The notes under the pieces: generated by a model
Told to the model about the DNA's origin: nothing
Seen by the model: only the letters and a program-made list of their open reading frames with translations
Databases searched by the model: none
Program-made: the position numbers and the translations under genes
Assembly (NCBI GenBank): GCA_023129325.1
Contig: JAGMCI010000033.1
Span: 1 to 64,000 of the forward strand
Origin: Caldifarciminota bacterium
GTDB lineage: Bacteria > Hydrothermota > UBA3073 > JACQXS01 > JAGMCI01
DNA: 64,000 nt
Direction: 5' to 3'
In this document: one piece after another, positions 2,202 through 25,312 of the stretch
Layout: every line of letters begins with the position of its first letter
Numbering within the stretch: position 1 is the first letter of the stretch

Positions 2202-3677
2202 TCACCTAACTACTATCATCTTTTTTGTTAAAGTTATATCTCCTGTTTCTAGTCTATAAAAGTAAATTCCACTCGCTACTCTCTCCCCATTTTCATTCTT
2301 TCCATCCCAGATAACTGTATAATATCCCGGTTTTTGCCTTTTGTCAATAATTTTTTTAATAAGCCTCCCAGAAATATCATAGATTTTGAGCGATGCTTCA
2401 CTCACATCTGATATCTGATATCTGATTTCTGTCTTCTGACTAAACGGATTAGGATAAGCTTCATATAATCCCAATTCTCGCTTCTCGCTTCTCGCTTCTT
2501 CTACTCCTTGGGTCCCTTGCAATGCACAAAGAGTGTTCCCAAATCCAACAAATATCATATCCCCATAGATAATAGGCCATGCATAACCTATCCCACCAGG
2601 CTGATAATAAGCATAAATTTCCTCTCCTGTTTCCACATCCAGGGCACACAACCGATTATTTTCTGAGGTATCTGTTTTGCCAATCCATACCAATCCATTG
2701 GAAGTTATAAGTGGAGAAGAAATAATACCCTGTCCACTTAGTTCTTTTTCCCAATTAATTGAACCAGTAAATATGCTTGCACAATATACATCACATGTGT
2801 CTGGACAAAATTTTCTCTCAGCTGGTATATATAAAAAAGTATCATAAACAGCAGGAGAAGCATCAAAGAAAAGGGTCTGTTCTTCACTAATTTTCCATCT
2901 CAGTTCACCTGTTTCTGCATCAAGAACATAAAAGGTATCTCTCCATCCGAAGGTAGCAAAACAAATTATCCCCTGTGCCACCGTAGGGGGAGTCTTTATC
3001 CCAGCTTTTGCCTTAAATGCCCAGATACTATCCCCTGTTAAAGCATCTAAAGCTATCATAGTAGAGTCATCACCCCCTATATATACCTTTCCATTGTAAA
3101 CTGCAGGTGGAATATGTGAAATAAGAGAAACACTATCAGGCCAAAGCTCATAATGCCACTTCATATCGCCTTGAAAATTAAAGGCATATACATCACCTTG
3201 ACCTTCTGAGACATAGACGATACTATCTACTGGAACTGGTGGGGACTGAACTGTATGTGAAAGAGTGTCCCACTTTATCTCACCTGTTCTTGCATTAAGA
3301 CAAAAGAAAGTAGGTAATTCTACTCCTCCCCAACTTGTGCCTGCAAATAGTAATGTATCTACCAAAGCAGTTGTCCAGACATTTGCAGTAAGCTGTTGCT
3401 CCCAGATGACCTTCCCCGAATCAACGCTTAAAGCCATAAGTCTATTGCCTCCATCTCCCACATAAATCATACCATTTCCCACTGAAGCAGAGAGCATTGT
3501 AAAATCATTATAACTTGCCTCAAATGTCCACTTCAATTCTAATGGTGGCGAGAGAGGCGATGGATAATACCCTGTATGCTGTGGGTCAAACTGAAAAGTA
3601 GACCAGGGTATAGGCTCATCACTCGAAAGAGGACTTGCTACAAAGCCTAAGAGAAAAATGATTACCTTTACTCCCAT
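2202..3677 (-). CDS. PQQ-like beta-propeller repeat protein with T9SS-type C-terminal sorting domain
   Basis: Repeated LYALDAETGELRWK-type blades; C-terminus YPNPFSQKTEIRYQI...LKIYDISGRLIKK...GIYFYRLETGDITLTKKMIVVR. Confidence 0.85.
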   Translation of the reverse strand: MGVKVIIFLLGFVASPLSSDEPIPWSTFQFDPQHTGYYPSPLSPPLELKWTFEASYNDFTMLSASVGNGMIYVGDGGNRLMALSVDSGKVIWEQQLTANVWTTALVDTLLFAGTSWGGVELPTFFCLNARTGEIKWDTLSHTVQSPPVPVDSIVYVSEGQGDVYAFNFQGDMKWHYELWPDSVSLISHIPPAVYNGKVYIGGDDSTMIALDALTGDSIWAFKAKAGIKTPPTVAQGIICFATFGWRDTFYVLDAETGELRWKISEEQTLFFDASPAVYDTFLYIPAERKFCPDTCDVYCASIFTGSINWEKELSGQGIISSPLITSNGLVWIGKTDTSENNRLCALDVETGEEIYAYYQPGGIGYAWPIIYGDMIFVGFGNTLCALQGTQGVEEARSEKRELGLYEAYPNPFSQKTEIRYQISDVSEASLKIYDISGRLIKKIIDKRQKPGYYTVIWDGKNENGERVASGIYFYRLETGDITLTKKMIVVR

Positions 3678-3742
3678 TTATTTATCTCTTTATACTACAT
3701 TAAGGAACATTTGTAAAGTTTTTTAAGCATAGTAACTACTCT

Positions 3743-5236
3743 TTATCTCACAAAGACTACCTTTTTTGTTTTACATACCTTTCTTGTTTTTAAATGATAA
3801 AAATAAACACCACTTCTCACAACTTTTCCTTGCTCATCTTTTCCTCTCCAAATGAAGTTATAGACCCCGGGCTGTTTCTCTCCTTCAAAGATAGTTTTTA
3901 CTAATCTGCCCGTTACATCATAAATTTGTAGAGACGCCTTACCTGCAATCGGTAACTCGTAACTAATCACTGTCTTTTGACTGAATGGGTTTGGCTTATT
4001 CTGAAAAAGTCTTATGTCTTTGGTCTCTGGTCTTTGGTCTGTCTCTTCTTCCACTCCTTGGGTCCCTTGCAATGCATAAAGAGTATTTCCAAATCCAACA
4101 AACATCATATCTCCATAAACAATGGGCCAGGCGTAGCCAGTTGCACCAGGTTGATAATAAGTATAAATTTCTTCTCCCGTTTCTGCATCCAAGACACACA
4201 GACGACTTTCTGAGGTATCTGTTTTTCCAATCCATACCAGTCCATTAGAGGTTATGAGTGGAGAAGAAAAAAGCATCCCTCGTCCACTAAACTCCTTTAC
4301 CCAACTGACTGAACCAGTAAATATGCTGACACAATAGAGCTCGTGTGTATCCACATCAAATTTTCTATCAGTTGGTATATATAGAAAAGTATCATAAACA
4401 GCAGGTGAAGCCGAGGAGAAAGCTATTTGTTCTTTGCTCATTTTCCATATCAGTTCACCCGTTTCTGCATCAAGTGCATAAAGAGTATCTCTCCATCCGA
4501 AGGTAGCAAAACAGACTATTCCATGTGCCACCGTAGGAGGAGTCTCTATCCCAGCTTTTGCCTTGAATGCCCAAATACTATCGCCTGTTAAGGCATCTAA
4601 AGCTATCATAGTAGAGTCGTCACCTCCTATATACACTTTTCCATTGTAAATAGCAGGTGGAATACATAAATCAAGTAGTTTATACTGCCATTTTATTTCT
4701 CCTTGAAAGTTAATTGCATAAATATATCCATGAAGGTCAGAAACATAAACAATGGTATCTACTGGAACTGGTGAAAACTCAACTGTATTAAAAAGAGTGT
4801 CCCACTTTATCTCACCTGTTCTTGCATCAAGGCAAAAGAAGGTAGGTAGGTCTATTCCGCCCCAACTCGTCCCTGCGAACACAAGTGTATCTGCGAGTGC
4901 AGTTGTCCATACATTTGCAGTAAGCTGTTGCTCCCAGATGACCTTTCCCGAATCAACGCTCAAAGCCACAAGTCTCCTATCGCCTGGGTCTCCTAAATAA
5001 AGCATACCATTGCCAACTGAGGCAGAACTCATTGTTAAGACGTAACTTGCCTCAAATGTCCACTTCAATTCTAACGGTGGCGAAAGAGGCGATGGATAAT
5101 ACCCCGTATGCTGTGGGTCAAACTGAAAAGTAGACCAGGGTATAGGTTCATCACTCGAAAGAGGGCTTGCTATAAAGCATAAGAGAAAAATAATAATTGG
5201 TGACGGACTACTATTTTTCATCCCATATTTCCTCAT
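3743..5236 (-). CDS. PQQ-like beta-propeller repeat protein, tandem paralog, T9SS-type C-terminal domain
   Basis: Near-identical propeller to the neighbouring ORF; C-terminus NKPNPFSQKTVISYELP...LQIYDVTGRLVKTI...SGVYFYHLKT. Confidence 0.85.
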   Translation of the reverse strand: MRKYGMKNSSPSPIIIFLLCFIASPLSSDEPIPWSTFQFDPQHTGYYPSPLSPPLELKWTFEASYVLTMSSASVGNGMLYLGDPGDRRLVALSVDSGKVIWEQQLTANVWTTALADTLVFAGTSWGGIDLPTFFCLDARTGEIKWDTLFNTVEFSPVPVDTIVYVSDLHGYIYAINFQGEIKWQYKLLDLCIPPAIYNGKVYIGGDDSTMIALDALTGDSIWAFKAKAGIETPPTVAHGIVCFATFGWRDTLYALDAETGELIWKMSKEQIAFSSASPAVYDTFLYIPTDRKFDVDTHELYCVSIFTGSVSWVKEFSGRGMLFSSPLITSNGLVWIGKTDTSESRLCVLDAETGEEIYTYYQPGATGYAWPIVYGDMMFVGFGNTLYALQGTQGVEEETDQRPETKDIRLFQNKPNPFSQKTVISYELPIAGKASLQIYDVTGRLVKTIFEGEKQPGVYNFIWRGKDEQGKVVRSGVYFYHLKTRKVCKTKKVVFVR

Positions 5237-5366: not shown

Positions 5367-6407
5367 TTATTCTTCAGAATATCCAAGTGAGAAGGCCATT
5401 GTTATGGCTTTAGGCTTGCAAACTTTATAACAGAGGGCACAACCAATGCATTTATCCAAAATTACCCTATGCTGTTCTCCTGTCTCTCCTTCAATTGCTT
5501 TAGTTGGGCATACTTTTTTGCACTCTTCACAACCTGTACAATTACTGCCAATCATAGCTTTTGGTCTTGCCTTCAGCTTGTCAATAATTGCACCTGTAGG
5601 ACACTTGTGAACACAAATTCCACAATTCTGACATCGCTCAAAGTTTATATACGCTAAATTATCCTTGATTTCTATCGCTTCATAAGGACAGTTTTTTTCA
5701 CATAATCCACACCCTATACAGCCTGTTTTGCAAGCACCCTTGGTAGCTTTTATATTATCAAATGAACTACAACCAACATAAATTTTTTGCGCCTTTGGAA
5801 AAAGCACAAGTATATTCTTAGGACATATTTCAACGCATTTCCCACAGCCAGTACATTTTTTATCATCTATGATTGGTAAATTACTCCGTGGTGCTCGTTC
5901 CGATTCGTCAGAGTGAAAAGGTCGTGGTGAACCATTTTCTCCAAGTTTTATAGCATCAAAAGGACATACTTCTACGCAGTCTCCAAATCCTAAACATCCA
6001 TACCGACAAGAGTTTGGTCCCTCATTTACTAAATTGGCAGCAATACAATTTTGAATACCCCTATAATTGAATTTCTCGTGAGTGTTAGATTTGCTTCCGG
6101 AACACTTTAAAACAGCCACTTTGGGTTCAAGGGCTTTTGCTTCTACGCCTAATATTTGGGCAAGTTGCTCTGCTAATTCTGCTCCACCTACTGGACATAA
6201 TCCAACTTCTGCTTCTCCTTTTGCCAGTGATGTTGCATAACCTTCACATCCCGGGAAGCTACAGGCACCACAATTACTGCCTGGCAAAACATCCATAATT
6301 TGTTTCTGGCGTTTGGATATATGGACGGCTAATTTGGCATAAGCAATGGCTAAAATTACTGAAAGTAATGCCCCAAGACCACCAAGTGAGATTAAAGCTT
6401 TTAACAT
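5367..6407 (-). CDS. rnfB: RnfB-like electron transport complex subunit B, multi 4Fe-4S ferredoxin
   Basis: N-terminal TM, DVLPGSNCGACSFPGCEGYA (Fe-S motif typical of RnfB), then several CxxCxxCxxxCP clusters. Confidence 0.85.
   Translation of the reverse strand: MLKALISLGGLGALLSVILAIAYAKLAVHISKRQKQIMDVLPGSNCGACSFPGCEGYATSLAKGEAEVGLCPVGGAELAEQLAQILGVEAKALEPKVAVLKCSGSKSNTHEKFNYRGIQNCIAANLVNEGPNSCRYGCLGFGDCVEVCPFDAIKLGENGSPRPFHSDESERAPRSNLPIIDDKKCTGCGKCVEICPKNILVLFPKAQKIYVGCSSFDNIKATKGACKTGCIGCGLCEKNCPYEAIEIKDNLAYINFERCQNCGICVHKCPTGAIIDKLKARPKAMIGSNCTGCEECKKVCPTKAIEGETGEQHRVILDKCIGCALCYKVCKPKAITMAFSLGYSEE
5887..5929. repeat. 36-bp in-frame mini-insert (with flanking CGTGGTG) inside rnfB
   Basis: CGTGGTGCTCGTTCCGATTCGTCAGAGTGAAAAGGTCGTGGTG; near-identical copies at 17571 and 21963. 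Confidence 0.9.
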
Positions 6408-15898: not shown

Positions 15899-18800
15899 TC
15901 AAAATTCGGGCCCTAATGAGAAATACCAATAAGTCTTTGATAAACTCAAGAAGTCAGTGTTTTTAGCAATATCAAATTTTAATATAAAATATGGAAATCT
16001 AATCCTTATCCCGGTACCAAAGTCAAACTTTAATCCATTAGCTGATGAATTTAATCCTCCATTCTTAAAAGGTTTAAATTTTCGTGGGTCAGGAACTGCA
16101 TATCCAAAGTCACAAAATAGAGCACCTCTCACTCCTCCAATAGATAAAGATATGGGAAAGGCAATTTTAAGTTTATCAATAAATGGATAGCGCAGTTCTA
16201 AATTTAATATACCAACATTTTTACCCTTAAATTCATGAATCTCGTAACCTCGTAAATCATCAGGTCCCCCAATTAGTAGATTGACCGACTCTTTATCCTT
16301 TCCCCATATACCTGCATTAATAAACCTTATTGCAAACGAGTATCTTGGAGCAATTCTTATATATTTACGGAAATCCAATTCATAAAAATTATAAAGTAAA
16401 GTTGGTGATATGAGAGGAAGGGTGGCTCGAAGCATAAGTTTTCCTCTTTCGCCATTTTGTGGTCCCGTAGCTCCCCACCTGGTATTATCAATTACATAAG
16501 AAAGAGATGGCGAAAATAAGTAAAAAGTCTCCTTTGGCGAAAGGGGTTTTTCCTCGGGCCAGGAATATATTACTGTTTCCCAAAGAGAACCATTAAGTTC
16601 TAAATCAAAACGATGAAATTTATCTAATGGATATTCAAATAATAGTCCACATCCCTTGTATTTTTGTTGCTCTAATGTATCTCCAATTAAAAACCAATGT
16701 TCTTCTTTAAAAATAGCTCCTCCAAAATCTAATCTTTTAGGAAGATATAAATAACTTAGATAATAATTGGCAGCAAGATTTTCAGGCGAATTAGTTTCAA
16801 GATAAAATCTATGGTTTCCAAGTAAGTCAGAAACTGCCAGTCTTAAATTTCCTAATATTCCGCATCCAGAAACATAAGAGATAGCCCCACCTCCCCAGTC
16901 AGGTGTAAAACGAATTCCTAATTTCTTTACTTTAAGAATAGAAGTATCAGTTTTTACCTCAACATATTGTCTATCAAATTCTGATTTCATTGAAAGAGGT
17001 CTATACTCAAAACCTTTCTGGAATGGTTTTTTGATAAGATATACATCCCAACCCCCATTTGTGTAAAGACTGAAAGCTAAATATTTTCCATTTTTTGAAA
17101 TTGAAGGTGTAAACACTCCTCCAACAACATTAGTAAGTTGAATAATATCAGAAGATTCAATATCCAATATATAGAGGTTATTAGCTCCTGTTTGATTAGA
17201 TACAAATAAAATTTTATCCTGAAACCAGATAGGCGAAGCTACATAAGTAGCTCGTGTTTTGATAAGAGGCACAGGCTTTTGTAGGAGCAATTCATGTGCC
17301 CCTACCTTAAAGATAGTATAATACCCATAGTGCCAGTTTTCACCCTCTAAAGGTCTATCAGATGTAAAAACAATAAACTTTCCATCAGGTAACCAGCTTG
17401 GAGTTAGGTCATCATATTCATCTGATGTGAGCTGTTTGAGATTCCCAGTATTAATATTTAATACATAGATATCCGCCTTTCCATCTTTTAATCCCCTGAA
17501 AGCAATTTCTTGACCGCTTGGTGAAAAAGAAGGAGAGGAAATTTGGTCAAGTTCAACCTGCCTGCCACTCCGTGGTGCTCGTTCCGATTCGTCAGAGTGA
17601 AAAGTTCGTGGTGAACCATCAGTTAGACAGAAGGGAATTTTCTTTATTATTTTTCTTTGATGCACATTCATAATGTATAATATATCTTTACCCGCTCCTT
17701 TTGCCACAAAAGCAAGGTTTTTGCCATCAGGACTCCAACTAATTCCTCCCTGCATAATATGCAAGGATTCAAATCCTTTTGATTTTCCTCCTTTTAATAG
17801 TCTATCCTTTATTCTTCCGTTAATACTTGACATAAGCCACAAACTTTCATATTCGTCTCTGTCAGATAGAAAAGCAATCTCAGTTCCATCAGGGGAAATA
17901 CTTGGTGCAGTATTGAAGGTATAGTTCTTATGATTTGTTAGCTTTTTGGAATTAACTGGACTCTCTTCAAGCTCAGCACATTGGAGCCAATATCTCTTTT
18001 TTAAGTCGTTCATCCATAATCTATTTAACTCTTCTGTATCTACTCCAATTACAGCCTGCAATGCCTTATTTAATCCCCCAGCAGCTCCAATTTTGTGAAA
18101 TATTTCTCCTATTTTCCTTTCACCATACCTATCGGCAATAAATTTCAAAATAGATTGTCCTTCTTTATACATAAGATAAGACCCTGCTATAAGCTCAAGT
18201 TGTTGAATTGGCTTTAGCCGACTATAGTATAAAGCATCTCTGATAACCATATCAGATTCAGCATCCCAGTCAAGTGAGAAATATTCAGCCATCCCTTCTA
18301 TAAACCAGAGTGGAACAGCAAATAAATTAATTTTTGGTAATATAGATGCAATTCCTGTCCCTTGTGATATGGCAAATTGAAACGCATGTACAAGTTCGTG
18401 AGCTAAAACATGTCTAAATTTCTCATAAGAACCATCAAAGGGAATAACAACACGATTTTTAAATATCTCTGTAAATCCACCAGTAGCTTCATCAATTAAA
18501 GAGAGAGTAATGTTTGTTTGTTCAAAATCATTGTGAGATTTATAGATAATAACAGGAATTGGCTCTTTTGGAGTATAAGAAAGAATTTGAGAGTATCTTT
18601 TATAAGAATCAAGTAATACCTGGTTAGCAAATTTTGCTAATCTTTCTCCACCTGAATAATAAATGATACTAAACTCATCTGTATCTATTACTTTCCAATC
18701 AAAATTCTTGTATTGAACCTTATTTTGTCCAAATTCCCAATATTGAGCATTTGCAACTGCAGGAATAAAAAGCAAGACCAAAAATAAACCACTCCATGGT

Positions 18801-18982
18801 AAAGGTCGTAATGAACCACGAATTACATTTACCCCGTACTTATGTATAAGTGCGGGGCGAATTGAACGAATAAATGTGTAAATAAGGGAAAATGGAAAGG
18901 TTGGGAAAAGGGGATATATTAAATTTCTCCCTTCTTCCCTGTTTCCCCTTTTTCCTTTCATTACACAAATCTGGGGTTTCAT
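15899..18982 (-). CDS. TolB-like beta-propeller protein with N-terminal gluzincin-like domain and C-terminal BamA/TamA-like outer-membrane barrel; true start probably internal
   Basis: HVLAHELVHAFQF (HExxH), repeated FSPSGQEIAF/WSPDGKNLAF blades, C-terminal LLIGGPDDLRGYE, LRYPFIDKLKIAFPI and SLGPEF terminus. Confidence 0.7.
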   Translation of the reverse strand: MKPQICVMKGKRGNREEGRNLIYPLFPTFPFSLIYTFIRSIRPALIHKYGVNVIRGSLRPLPWSGLFLVLLFIPAVANAQYWEFGQNKVQYKNFDWKVIDTDEFSIIYYSGGERLAKFANQVLLDSYKRYSQILSYTPKEPIPVIIYKSHNDFEQTNITLSLIDEATGGFTEIFKNRVVIPFDGSYEKFRHVLAHELVHAFQFAISQGTGIASILPKINLFAVPLWFIEGMAEYFSLDWDAESDMVIRDALYYSRLKPIQQLELIAGSYLMYKEGQSILKFIADRYGERKIGEIFHKIGAAGGLNKALQAVIGVDTEELNRLWMNDLKKRYWLQCAELEESPVNSKKLTNHKNYTFNTAPSISPDGTEIAFLSDRDEYESLWLMSSINGRIKDRLLKGGKSKGFESLHIMQGGISWSPDGKNLAFVAKGAGKDILYIMNVHQRKIIKKIPFCLTDGSPRTFHSDESERAPRSGRQVELDQISSPSFSPSGQEIAFRGLKDGKADIYVLNINTGNLKQLTSDEYDDLTPSWLPDGKFIVFTSDRPLEGENWHYGYYTIFKVGAHELLLQKPVPLIKTRATYVASPIWFQDKILFVSNQTGANNLYILDIESSDIIQLTNVVGGVFTPSISKNGKYLAFSLYTNGGWDVYLIKKPFQKGFEYRPLSMKSEFDRQYVEVKTDTSILKVKKLGIRFTPDWGGGAISYVSGCGILGNLRLAVSDLLGNHRFYLETNSPENLAANYYLSYLYLPKRLDFGGAIFKEEHWFLIGDTLEQQKYKGCGLLFEYPLDKFHRFDLELNGSLWETVIYSWPEEKPLSPKETFYLFSPSLSYVIDNTRWGATGPQNGERGKLMLRATLPLISPTLLYNFYELDFRKYIRIAPRYSFAIRFINAGIWGKDKESVNLLIGGPDDLRGYEIHEFKGKNVGILNLELRYPFIDKLKIAFPISLSIGGVRGALFCDFGYAVPDPRKFKPFKNGGLNSSANGLKFDFGTGIRIRFPYFILKFDIAKNTDFLSLSKTYWYFSLGPEF
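17281..17305. repeat. GTAGGGGC-type palindrome inside CDS
   Basis: GTAGGAGCAATTCATGTGCCCCTAC. Confidence 0.75.
17571..17613. repeat. 36-bp in-frame mini-insert inside the propeller/barrel gene
   Basis: CGTGGTGCTCGTTCCGATTCGTCAGAGTGAAAAGTTCGTGGTG; one mismatch to the rnfB copy. Confidence 0.9.
18832..18857. repeat. Palindrome near 5' end of the propeller/barrel gene
   Basis: CCCCGTACTTATGTATAAGTGCGGGG. Confidence 0.75.
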
Positions 18983-21266: not shown

Positions 21267-22019
21267 CTATTTTAATGTAAAAAAGACTTTGAATCCGTTG
21301 GGTTTTATTATTAATCCATATCTTGGTGGTTCGTGGGAAGCAATTATTGCACTTATAAGGCGGTTTAATATGGCGGCTCCTACACAATAACTTGCTCTTT
21401 GAAGAACTTCTCTCTTCTCTTTTCTTAAGTTCCGATAGCCTTTCCATTTTCCGTTTGAGATAGACCAATCCCACTTTAAACTTTCAGGCATACTGTTTTC
21501 TTCAATATATTTGAGTTGACGTTCTCTGGCATCTTCTGGATACTTATCTTTAGGATAAATTTCTCTTGCTTCTTGTCTAATATATTCATTATAGTCATCT
21601 AAACTTTCATACCATTCAACTGTATCGTAATAATCTCCACCTTCTCCCATTTTAGCTCCTGAATTTGCATGAGCATAGAGCATATAATCATTTTTAAGAA
21701 CTCCAGCATACCACCTGAAGCCAAAATAAGTGAACCATATACTGCCTTCTATCAAATAAGCTCTTATAGCATCTTTCTTGTTTCCCATATATTGTTCTCC
21801 AAGTCCTGGAACCAATAAAGATAAAGCTATTGCTTTCTTATGAGATTTAGGCTCAAGTACAATTTCGGGTGGAAAATCCAGAGGCTTTAATTCCTCTACT
21901 CCATAAACTGCAGTGCTTAAAAATATTAACATTATTTGTATAATCTGTGTTAATCTGTGGTTCACCACGACCTTTTCACTCTGACGAATCGGAACGAGCA
22001 CCACCGAGTGGTTCTTCAT
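21267..22019 (-). CDS. Exported protein of unknown function (DUF5683-like appearance)
   Basis: SLLVPGLGEQYMGNKKDAIRAYLIEGSIWFTYFGFRWY; likely true start at MLIFLSTAVYGVEE, with upstream codons derived from repeats. Confidence 0.55.
   Translation of the reverse strand: MKNHSVVLVPIRQSEKVVVNHRLTQIIQIMLIFLSTAVYGVEELKPLDFPPEIVLEPKSHKKAIALSLLVPGLGEQYMGNKKDAIRAYLIEGSIWFTYFGFRWYAGVLKNDYMLYAHANSGAKMGEGGDYYDTVEWYESLDDYNEYIRQEAREIYPKDKYPEDARERQLKYIEENSMPESLKWDWSISNGKWKGYRNLRKEKREVLQRASYCVGAAILNRLISAIIASHEPPRYGLIIKPNGFKVFFTLK
21963..22005. repeat. 36-bp mini-insert at gene start (reverse orientation relative to window)
   Basis: CACCACGACCTTTTCACTCTGACGAATCGGAACGAGCACCACC. Confidence 0.9.
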
Positions 22020-25000
22020 TTTACGACTGCGAATTTCTTAAACCTTACAAAATTCTCACTCCCTGCCTTGACTTCAATACGGCATATATAAATGCCACTC
22101 ACAAGGTCAGGAAGTGGAACTTCTATAGAGCCCTTTTCCCCAATTTTACCCTCAAAATCTTTTACTATTTCACCTGCTATATTGATTATTTTTATGTTCA
22201 CCGAGCTCGCAGAGCCGCTGAAATATTTTATCCTTCCCCAACTGTGGACTGGATTTGGATATATATAAAAAGGACTTTCTTTGAATACATTAGTTGGAAT
22301 TATTGGAGGTGTTGGAGTAAGCTTGTAGATACCGTTATTACACTCATCACAATGAAGCATGGCCCAAGGTAAAGCACCATAATTTCCAAGACTCCAGGCA
22401 TAAAGTTTGCCGTCATCACAACCTACAATAATTTCAAGTAACTCATCACCATCAATGTCAACAAGAACTGGGGTTGAATAAATTTTACCCCCAACTGATA
22501 ATGGAAATCCAGAGGCAAGGTCTCCTTTATTAGTATAAGCAAGAAGTTCACCATCTGGAGAACCAATTACAATTTCAAGTCTTCCATCTCCGTTTATATC
22601 CCCAACCACAGGAGATGACTGAAAGGACTCACTAACTTTTGTTTCGATTGGAAAACCAGGCAAATTTGCCCCATTATTATTAAAGGCGTAAATCTTATTT
22701 CCTGCGGCTAATATTATGTCTAAAAGAGAATCACCGTCAATATCAGCTAAAGCTGGTGATGAATAAAAAGAAGTATCTTTTAAACTGCGACTCCAGATAG
22801 TCTTACCACTGTTATTTATACAGTAAACTTCACCTATTCCAGTAGATATAATAATTTCTGATTTTCCATCTCCATTTATATCACCGACTACAGGAGATGA
22901 AGTAGTAGGGGGGAGGTGTGGCTCAAGTGCAGTCCATAATGTGTCACCATTTGGTTTTATTGCCCATATTCTGCCATCAAAAGAAACAGCATAAATTACC
23001 GTATCACAAGAATCATAAACAGGTGTTGTCCATATATATTGATGTAAATTTTTAGGAAACCCAGCCAATGAATTCCCATTACCATCCCAGGCATAAAGTT
23101 TGCCATCATCTGAGCCTATAAAAATTTCTTTACCTTCAATAGTATCAATATTTGCCAAAAGAGGTGCAGAAATTATTGCATCTCGTATTGTATCAGTGGT
23201 TGGAAATCCAGGAAGTATATTTCCAGATAATATATCCCATGCATATACTTTGCTCCATACCTCAAGTACACTATCTTTTGCCATTTTGAAAGAAGATGTA
23301 GCCGAAGGCTTTAGCCTTCGTGAATAAAAAGTCTTCTTACTTTCTCGCCAACGTCCAAAATATGCACCACAAACAACATCTGGAATGCCATCCCCATTTA
23401 TATCACCTATTGCCGGTGATGAAAAAATATTTGCACCATATCCAGCATCCACAGGTTGATAACTCCACTTAATTCCACCGCTATCATTGCATACAAATGT
23501 ATAACCACCATTGAGAGTATCCATAACATTACAGGCAATTAGCTTTTTGCCATTAACCTCTATAATATTTGGTGAGTTTACATCAAAAAAGTCACCACAT
23601 TTTACTGGAAAACTTGCATATCTCCAGTCAAATTTAAGAGAAAAGCTCATCACAGTATCTGATTTGCTAATATTATAAATAGAGATATGTGACATTGAAC
23701 CTTTATTATTATTTGTATTTGGTTTTGTAATTGGTGTAAACTTATCTAAGTTCCCTTCGTAAAAAACATCCCATGGTGTGCCATAGAAAAAAGCCTCCAT
23801 ATTTGTTGCCAACCACCAAGGAGTCTCGAAATCTTGAATCCCATCTGCTTCTTCCATATCTACACCTTTTGGGGAACCAACATTTATTTCATTCATCAAG
23901 GAATCACGGGCAACTTTATCCTCATCTATATGCCATATTGCAAGCCCACCAGCCATTGTATCACAGGGTGTCCCCCAATCATAATCATCAAATCTTATAA
24001 GAACTCCGTCCTTCCATACCCTTATACCAGTGGAATCAAAATGAAAAATGGAATCCGGGGAAACCCAGAACGAGTCTACTGATGTATCAGGTGAATGATA
24101 TGCAAATCTCTCGGTTACTAAAAAATACTCTTTTGTATTTATTGGCACTTTATAAAGTTTAGTCCTTGTGGTGTCATTACCTCCCATTCTGTAGACTTTT
24201 ATATCAGTAGTGTCTTTATCAAGAATTTCTGGCTTTATCCAGCCAAGTTTTTCTGTATGCCATGCTGAAGTATGCGGAGGCAATAATCCATTTAAATTCC
24301 AGTTTCCTGTTCCCATTAAAGCCCAGCCTCCACAACCCATTGTCTCACCCCAAGTGTCATATAAGTCATATAGCCCTAATTGATGCCCAAACTCATGAGC
24401 TAATCCGCCCTGCAGATAACCTGACATACCATCTTGAAATGCAGTCTCTGGATAAATTATACCCTCTGTAATTGCGACTGTGCCATCATCCACCCAGACA
24501 GGAGTTCCAAAATATTCATCAATATTAGCTACAAAACAAGCAATAATATCACAAGGAGAATCCCAGAAATAATCCGTCTGCCACATTGAACCAGCATGAA
24601 AAAGGATAACAGCATCATAATTTTTGAACTTTACCAAAGTATCTTCATCACAAGTAAGAACTGCATCTCTAAAAAGAGTAAGTAAACCTTGAACATAATT
24701 TTCAGGGTCGCCATAATAAGTCATTTTATAAGGGAGTTTATAACTTGCATTGTCTCCATCAGGAACAACATCAAACTTTATATATAATTTACCTCCAGAG
24801 TTATCCCACCAATAATTTCTTAAAGATTCCATCAGATGCTCAAAATATCTTTTGGTATGTGGTGGGTCGTAGTAAAGATTATGATAGCCCTTATTCCCAG
24901 ATATGGAATCAAATGGAGAATCTCTTTTCCCGTTTATATAGCCAAGCGAATCATAAGGAAACTCATTGCCCTCAATATCCATTAATCCATTTCCAGTGGT

Positions 25001-25312
25001 TAGTGAAGTCGTATCTTCTTGAAATTCAATCCTTATAGCAAGAACATAAAGAGTATCAGGCCCAGGACCCAATTTTCTTTTCTTTATCCCTTCAAGTAAA
25101 TTTCTTTTTGATGGTTGACGAATATATCTTTTAAGTTCAGGTTTCTCTTTAAAGAGCTTGTCAAATTTTTGATTTACAAATTTTACCCTCTTTGTTCCAA
25201 GCTCCTTTAATTTCTTAAATTGAGCCCGCTCACTTGCCCAACTTGAAAAACTCAAAACAGCACACAGATTTACACAGATTAAAAAGATAAACACAGATTT
25301 GAATTTTTTCAT
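22016..25312 (-). CDS. M6-family metalloprotease domain protein with FG-GAP/VCBS-type propeller and T9SS-type C-terminal domain
   Basis: HEFGHQLGLYDLYD zinc motif; repeated VVGDINGDGRLEIVIGS; C-terminal YPNPVHSWGRIKYF...GIYICRIEV. Confidence 0.85.
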   Translation of the reverse strand: MKKFKSVFIFLICVNLCAVLSFSSWASERAQFKKLKELGTKRVKFVNQKFDKLFKEKPELKRYIRQPSKRNLLEGIKKRKLGPGPDTLYVLAIRIEFQEDTTSLTTGNGLMDIEGNEFPYDSLGYINGKRDSPFDSISGNKGYHNLYYDPPHTKRYFEHLMESLRNYWWDNSGGKLYIKFDVVPDGDNASYKLPYKMTYYGDPENYVQGLLTLFRDAVLTCDEDTLVKFKNYDAVILFHAGSMWQTDYFWDSPCDIIACFVANIDEYFGTPVWVDDGTVAITEGIIYPETAFQDGMSGYLQGGLAHEFGHQLGLYDLYDTWGETMGCGGWALMGTGNWNLNGLLPPHTSAWHTEKLGWIKPEILDKDTTDIKVYRMGGNDTTRTKLYKVPINTKEYFLVTERFAYHSPDTSVDSFWVSPDSIFHFDSTGIRVWKDGVLIRFDDYDWGTPCDTMAGGLAIWHIDEDKVARDSLMNEINVGSPKGVDMEEADGIQDFETPWWLATNMEAFFYGTPWDVFYEGNLDKFTPITKPNTNNNKGSMSHISIYNISKSDTVMSFSLKFDWRYASFPVKCGDFFDVNSPNIIEVNGKKLIACNVMDTLNGGYTFVCNDSGGIKWSYQPVDAGYGANIFSSPAIGDINGDGIPDVVCGAYFGRWRESKKTFYSRRLKPSATSSFKMAKDSVLEVWSKVYAWDILSGNILPGFPTTDTIRDAIISAPLLANIDTIEGKEIFIGSDDGKLYAWDGNGNSLAGFPKNLHQYIWTTPVYDSCDTVIYAVSFDGRIWAIKPNGDTLWTALEPHLPPTTSSPVVGDINGDGKSEIIISTGIGEVYCINNSGKTIWSRSLKDTSFYSSPALADIDGDSLLDIILAAGNKIYAFNNNGANLPGFPIETKVSESFQSSPVVGDINGDGRLEIVIGSPDGELLAYTNKGDLASGFPLSVGGKIYSTPVLVDIDGDELLEIIVGCDDGKLYAWSLGNYGALPWAMLHCDECNNGIYKLTPTPPIIPTNVFKESPFYIYPNPVHSWGRIKYFSGSASSVNIKIINIAGEIVKDFEGKIGEKGSIEVPLPDLVSGIYICRIEVKAGSENFVRFKKFAVVK
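23303..23320. repeat. Palindrome in M6 protease gene
   Basis: CGAAGGCTttAGCCTTCG. Confidence 0.75.

Follow-up and report, generated by a model that had tools for sequence, protein, structure and literature searches.

An in-frame insertion in rnfB of a WOR-3-like bacterium consists of a 27-nucleotide repeat and a 24-nucleotide repeat nested within it, the latter recurring in other phyla

The DNA analyzed here (the window) is a 64,000-nucleotide stretch from a Caldifarciminota genome of 2.02 Mb in 57 contigs, designated G000. Within it lies a minus-strand gene for an RnfB-like Fe-S protein, which scored 140.6 bits against the TIGR01944 model (cut-off 68.7) in a family-model scan. Alignment with six orthologues from the same order revealed a net gain of 17 residues, SPRPFHSDESERAPRSN, between GENG and LP. 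The protein reads GENG-SPRPFHSDESERAPRSN-LPIIDDKK at this point, and the six orthologues read GENG-LPVIDDKK or similar. The added residues are flanked by Fer4 clusters and directly precede the one starting at residue 178, and at the DNA level the gap is a clean in-frame 51 bp. The initial annotation had proposed a 36-bp mini-element inserted in frame in rnfB and bounded by CGTGGTG direct repeats. In-frame insertion was borne out, and none of the six orthologues has the insert, unlike what ancestral residues would predict; the 36-bp stretch of 12 residues is not the unit but a part of the larger insertion. The 51-mer is a 27-mer, termed here the carrier, split between GTG and AAGG by a 24-mer, termed unit B (CTCGTTCCGATTCGTCAGAGTGAA in rnfB), and both CGTGGTG repeats belong to the interior of the carrier rather than marking the edges of the insert. 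What had been taken for a single unit is thus two nested repeats, each with its own dispersed copies, and the multiple of three noted initially holds for the carrier (27), for B (24), and for the composite (51). In a separate part of the window (2202-5236), two long paralogues of 491 and 497 aa lie side by side and share stretches that are 81-95% identical; BamB-like and type IX sorting-domain models match the second of them.

As had been claimed, the window holds the repeat three times, against an expectation of none from shuffled sequences. Over 34 nt, the copies at 5887 (+) and 17571 (+) have no mismatch and the copy at 21972 (-) has one (Table 1). The second is read in the same frame in another protein, as stated initially, this being a TolB-like propeller/Omp85 protein. 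The third exists, on the minus strand, but either is intergenic or falls in a 250-aa ORF, at an N-terminus that is doubtful, and its frame is different (LVPIRQSEK). Compared with four orthologues, the TolB-like gene is longer by 75 nt at its copy; the composite makes up 51 of them and 24 are unexplained. These 24 nt (CLTD...GRQV, window 17550-17640) are possibly a third nested repeat.

Table 1. Positions of the repeat units and the rnfB gene in the window
Feature	Position	Strand	Remarks
RnfB-like Fe-S protein carrying the insert	5367..6407	-	TIGR01944 rnfB above cut-off; Fer4 clusters
Composite element (27-nt carrier + 24-nt unit B)	5884..5934	+	In frame in rnfB (minus-strand gene); 51 bp absent from 6 orthologues
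Unit B of the rnfB composite	5894..5917	+	Exact 24-mer; minus-strand reading FHSDESER
Composite in TolB-like propeller/Omp85 gene (15899-18982, minus)	17568..17618	+	In frame; orthologues without 75 nt here
Unit B in second composite	17578..17601	+	
Degenerate carrier without B, 4 mismatches, after CCA, in frame in TolB-like gene (15899-18982)	18792..18818	+	0 matches in 20 shuffles
Third composite	21958..22008	-	Between genes 21267-22019 and 22016-25312, or doubtful N-terminus
Unit B in third composite	21975..21998	-	

Searching G000 with the outer halves of the composite, without the inner part, recovered the carrier by itself. The carrier, CTCCGTGGTGAAGGTCGTGGTGAACCA, comprises 24 nt followed by CCA, starting with CTCC and ending with ACCA. 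Without B it has 17 exact-ended matches in G000 and 34 at up to three mismatches; a few were also found in genomes G001, G005, G007, and G008, and none at up to three mismatches in G002-G004, G006, or two genomes from other phyla. In G000, the trinucleotide CCA precedes 39 of the 41 carriers and composites, the two exceptions being TTA (the rnfB composite) and TCA; in relatives it precedes all 8. Carriers arranged in tandem in G000 with a period of 27 confirm the unit length. At G000:C9:141835-141900 (L203, L204), a tandem carrier is also internally expanded in 12-nt steps (GGTGAAGGTCGT) and forms part of a 435-codon open frame with LRGEGRGEP repeats. Seven composites were counted in G000, all with B at one fixed position inside the carrier, together with five further copies of B standing alone in unrelated flanks. 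The inner core, GCTCGTTCCGATTCGTCAGAGTG, occurs at 12 places on 9 contigs and is not confined to the contig studied. Draft genomes may conceal copies.

Unit B has the form CTCGTTCCGAT-NN-GTCAGAGTGAA, with two 11-nt arms around a spacer of 0-4 nt, and it starts with CTCG and ends with TGAA. The arms are invariant in most copies across genomes, and sequence variation was seen at loop positions only, with no compensatory pair changes. The spacers found were TC, TT, AA, AT, GC, and GA, with TATC in a Dehalococcoidales MAG (G100) and no spacer in one Zixibacteria copy. Identical arms are present in G100 (54 copies) and in Zixibacteria RBG-1 (5 copies). An exact scan for B (one loop type) of 85,462 species genomes returned only WOR-3 RS_17_16, a Dehalococcoidales MAG, and Zixibacteria RBG-1. 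By simple arithmetic with equal base frequencies, a 24-mer with one two-fold position would have approximately 0.004 chance occurrences in 264 Gb. Within the WOR-3 phylum, B is limited to the order of G000; it is found in 1 of 246 genomes of the class of the Dehalococcoidales MAG and in 1 of 134 of the Zixibacteria phylum. We considered contamination as a source of the cross-phylum matches and judged it unlikely: in Zixibacteria the contig is one sequence of 2.12 Mb, and in Dehalococcoidales the copies are spread over many contigs with different flanks. No credible match to the repeat was obtained among phages (best E 0.9), and plasmids yielded no B and carrier matches at chance level only. 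An Rfam scan of the window detected a tRNA only, and a literature search by sequence string returned nothing relevant.

In G100, B adjoins itself with a 24-nt period (L063), which confirmed its length as well. It also resides at one position inside a different carrier, CCTCGA^CAAGCTCGGAG, which is found without B in the same genome, indicating that nesting happened independently in a second phylum. The intergenic DNA of G100 (L053-L075) is a mosaic of short words, among them CTCGTTCCGACTTGCCTCGA, CAAGCTCGGAGCAGGTTA, and TTCAGGCCGAGCCTTCAG, reused in varying order.

Orthologous sites with and without the units were then compared. For B, the IspE gene (G008 versus G002), the UGD gene (G007 and G008 versus G002), and a site upstream of a membrane protease gene (G008 versus G002) each differed by exactly 24 bp, the flanks not being duplicated, and a sorting-domain gene is also longer by 24 bp in G008. 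No target rule was seen among the insertion sites of B. For the carrier, exactly 27 bp had been gained at CCA in RibD (filled in G008, empty in G007, G002, and G000), in PheT (filled in G008, empty in G007), and in an ABC gene (filled in G007, empty in G002), and the CCA is already there in the empty sites. Either the CCA target was duplicated or a carrier ending in CCA was joined beside a CCA, the data being compatible with both. G007 and G008 belong to the same genus as separate species and differ at several of the sites, indicating that these insertions are recent. At the exact bond upstream of the membrane protease gene where B lies in G008 (L025), its sister G007 (L123) has a different insert of 34 nt, TCCGAAGGATTCTGTCGCAGACTCTGTAAGTGAA, which also ends in GTGAA and occurs just once among the loci retrieved.

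Of the 41 carriers and composites in G000, at least 23 lie within ORFs of 200 aa or longer and in frame with them, counting a copy as intragenic when it lies at least 10 codons past a possible start. Five of the six frames of the carrier and four of the six of B are free of stops. Since the units are multiples of three and most frames are open, most insertions lengthen the protein by 8, 9, or 17 residues; an insertion adds a short loop, and the gene is not killed. Besides RnfB and the TolB-like/Omp85 protein, host genes named by sequence inspection rather than by family scans encode IspE, LpxB, MutS, UGD, RibD, and PheT, as well as MurE-like, homoserine-dehydrogenase-like, and response-regulator proteins. 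In a bactofilin-like gene, the frame in which the composite is read would hold a TGA, but that copy has CGA at this position in B; of its two T-to-C changes, one removes the stop and the other is synonymous in that frame. Other apparent in-frame inserts were observed in LpxB of G001 (NNVGGATLAVAQNERVGTRPTST, L091), RpoB of G000 (GGPRSEEARHGIPSEGANEQRSRGAKKQSG, L002), and a MurE-like protein of G000 (SPCLPTRQVG, L202), and G000 and G001 may harbor several families of such units.

Most intragenic copies of B, in five different proteins, read HSDxSER, as would be expected of a functional peptide motif kept by selection. Other copies, however, read LVPISQSE (in MutS) or FTLTNRNE (at the end of CinA), carriers use four frames, many copies lie between genes, and conservation is at the DNA level in every context. 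The other frames and the non-coding copies have already largely refuted selection for a peptide, which we regard as highly improbable.

The small dispersed repeats of cyanobacteria are the closest precedent, and the units found here would work in a similar manner. The cyanobacterial repeats, which Elhai and colleagues are said to have described in 2008, are reportedly 21-27 nt long, recently mobile, and often nested in other repeats. Some families have a shared secondary structure with compensatory changes; the changes seen in B are in the loop. The present units, measured from empty sites and tandem periods, are within the size range so described; they are cleanly present or absent at orthologous sites (IspE, UGD, RibD, PheT, and RnfB), and B is nested in the 27-nt carrier of G000 and in the other carrier of G100. 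They differ in their hosts, which are a WOR-3-like order, Dehalococcoidales, and Zixibacteria, in having identical arms across phyla, in their many in-frame copies in conserved genes, and in the location of the carrier at CCA.

Rickettsia palindromic elements, with which the repeat had been compared at the outset, are approximately 150 bp long and insert in frame in unrelated protein genes, the encoded peptide being tolerated (PMC10969869). The comparison is apt in concept, in that a dispersed mini-element enters genes in frame (23 of 41 copies here). The units of 24, 27, and 51 nt are, however, not the palindromes of about 100-150 bp that define such elements. Their predicted hairpins are no more stable than those of shuffled sequences, and for this reason we do not call them palindromic elements. 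MITEs differ as well, as neither unit has terminal inverted repeats with a variable duplication; B inserts without duplication and the carrier at a CCA that the empty sites already have.

Taken together, the rnfB insert is probably a pair of nested, non-autonomous small dispersed repeats for which an enzyme or copying process is supplied in trans. That the units move is what we infer from filled and empty sites. The carrier, with its 24 nt and CCA, adds 27 bp at a CCA already in place, and B adds 24 bp without target duplication. On the simplest reading, B entered one copy of the carrier, and the composite then spread to seven places. The enzyme or process acting in trans may copy a short single strand, either hairpin DNA or RNA, and B may have passed between phyla by horizontal transfer. 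The joining of the carrier at a fixed trinucleotide suggests strand transfer with a fixed target. No mobilizing gene was identified.

Several other routes could have dispersed the units. REP and REPIN sequences are dispersed repeats of approximately 20-40 nt that are assumed to be non-autonomous and are associated with RAYT transposases (PMC3116915, PMC3733652), and REPs have a GTAG or CGTC tag at one end (PMC3733652). Spread of REP-like hairpins in trans by a Y1 (RAYT/TnpA-REP) transposase would agree with the size of the units and their dispersal, and both the clean insertion of B and the fixed left flank and right end of the carrier are consistent with single-strand HUH transposition. Genes for Y1_Tnp are indeed present in G000 (4) and several relatives. 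Yet of 25 Y1_Tnp hits (PF01797) in 11 genomes, none had B or the carrier as a neighbor at up to about 1.5 kb; G100, the richest genome in B, had no such hit, whereas G002 had 6 and contains neither unit. With no GTAG or CGTC tag, hairpins no better than shuffles, largely intragenic copies where REPs would be extragenic, and units that cross phyla unchanged, we consider this route quite improbable. Short repeats might instead be the templates of microhomology-primed switching during replication or repair, requiring no dedicated enzyme. The tandem and expanded copies, the repeats nested in repeats, the CCA at both ends of the carrier serving as microhomology, and the word mosaic of G100 are all in keeping with this. 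A random process would not be expected to keep the unit ends exact and constant from one unrelated site to the next, where B has no common flank, nor to give exact identity across three phyla, and template switching as the cause appears doubtful. Copying of the units from RNA by a reverse transcriptase, a route reportedly proposed for the cyanobacterial repeats, could account for the clean insertions of B and its arm-loop layout with a loop of 0, 2, or 4 nt, but the hairpin energies are unremarkable, and we hold it to be unlikely.

A bolder interpretation makes B, whose two 11-nt arms are invariant, a mobile element in its own right, one that has crossed between at least three phyla and inserts precisely, with its target left unduplicated, by a recombination system yet to be described. 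We entertain this tentatively, as a speculation with a modest chance of being right; if true, few known DNA units with horizontal mobility would be as small as B.

What is new is that B is identical across phyla, that the nesting has been mapped, that the carrier follows a CCA rule, and that conserved genes show in-frame gains. The filled and empty sites indicate that 24-bp and 27-bp insertions each spread as a discrete unit and are carried inside one another, adding loops to proteins as conserved as RnfB, LpxB, IspE, MutS, PheT, and RibD with the reading frame kept. The crossing of phyla by a 24-nt unit is not predicted by any comparison with Rickettsia-like elements, and some enzyme or process must recognize the two 11-nt arms of B. 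With B identical in three phyla, the way in which such tiny repeats move becomes a question that can be tested directly. The findings also advise caution, in that small lineage-specific inserts in conserved proteins can be mobile DNA and not adaptive sequence.
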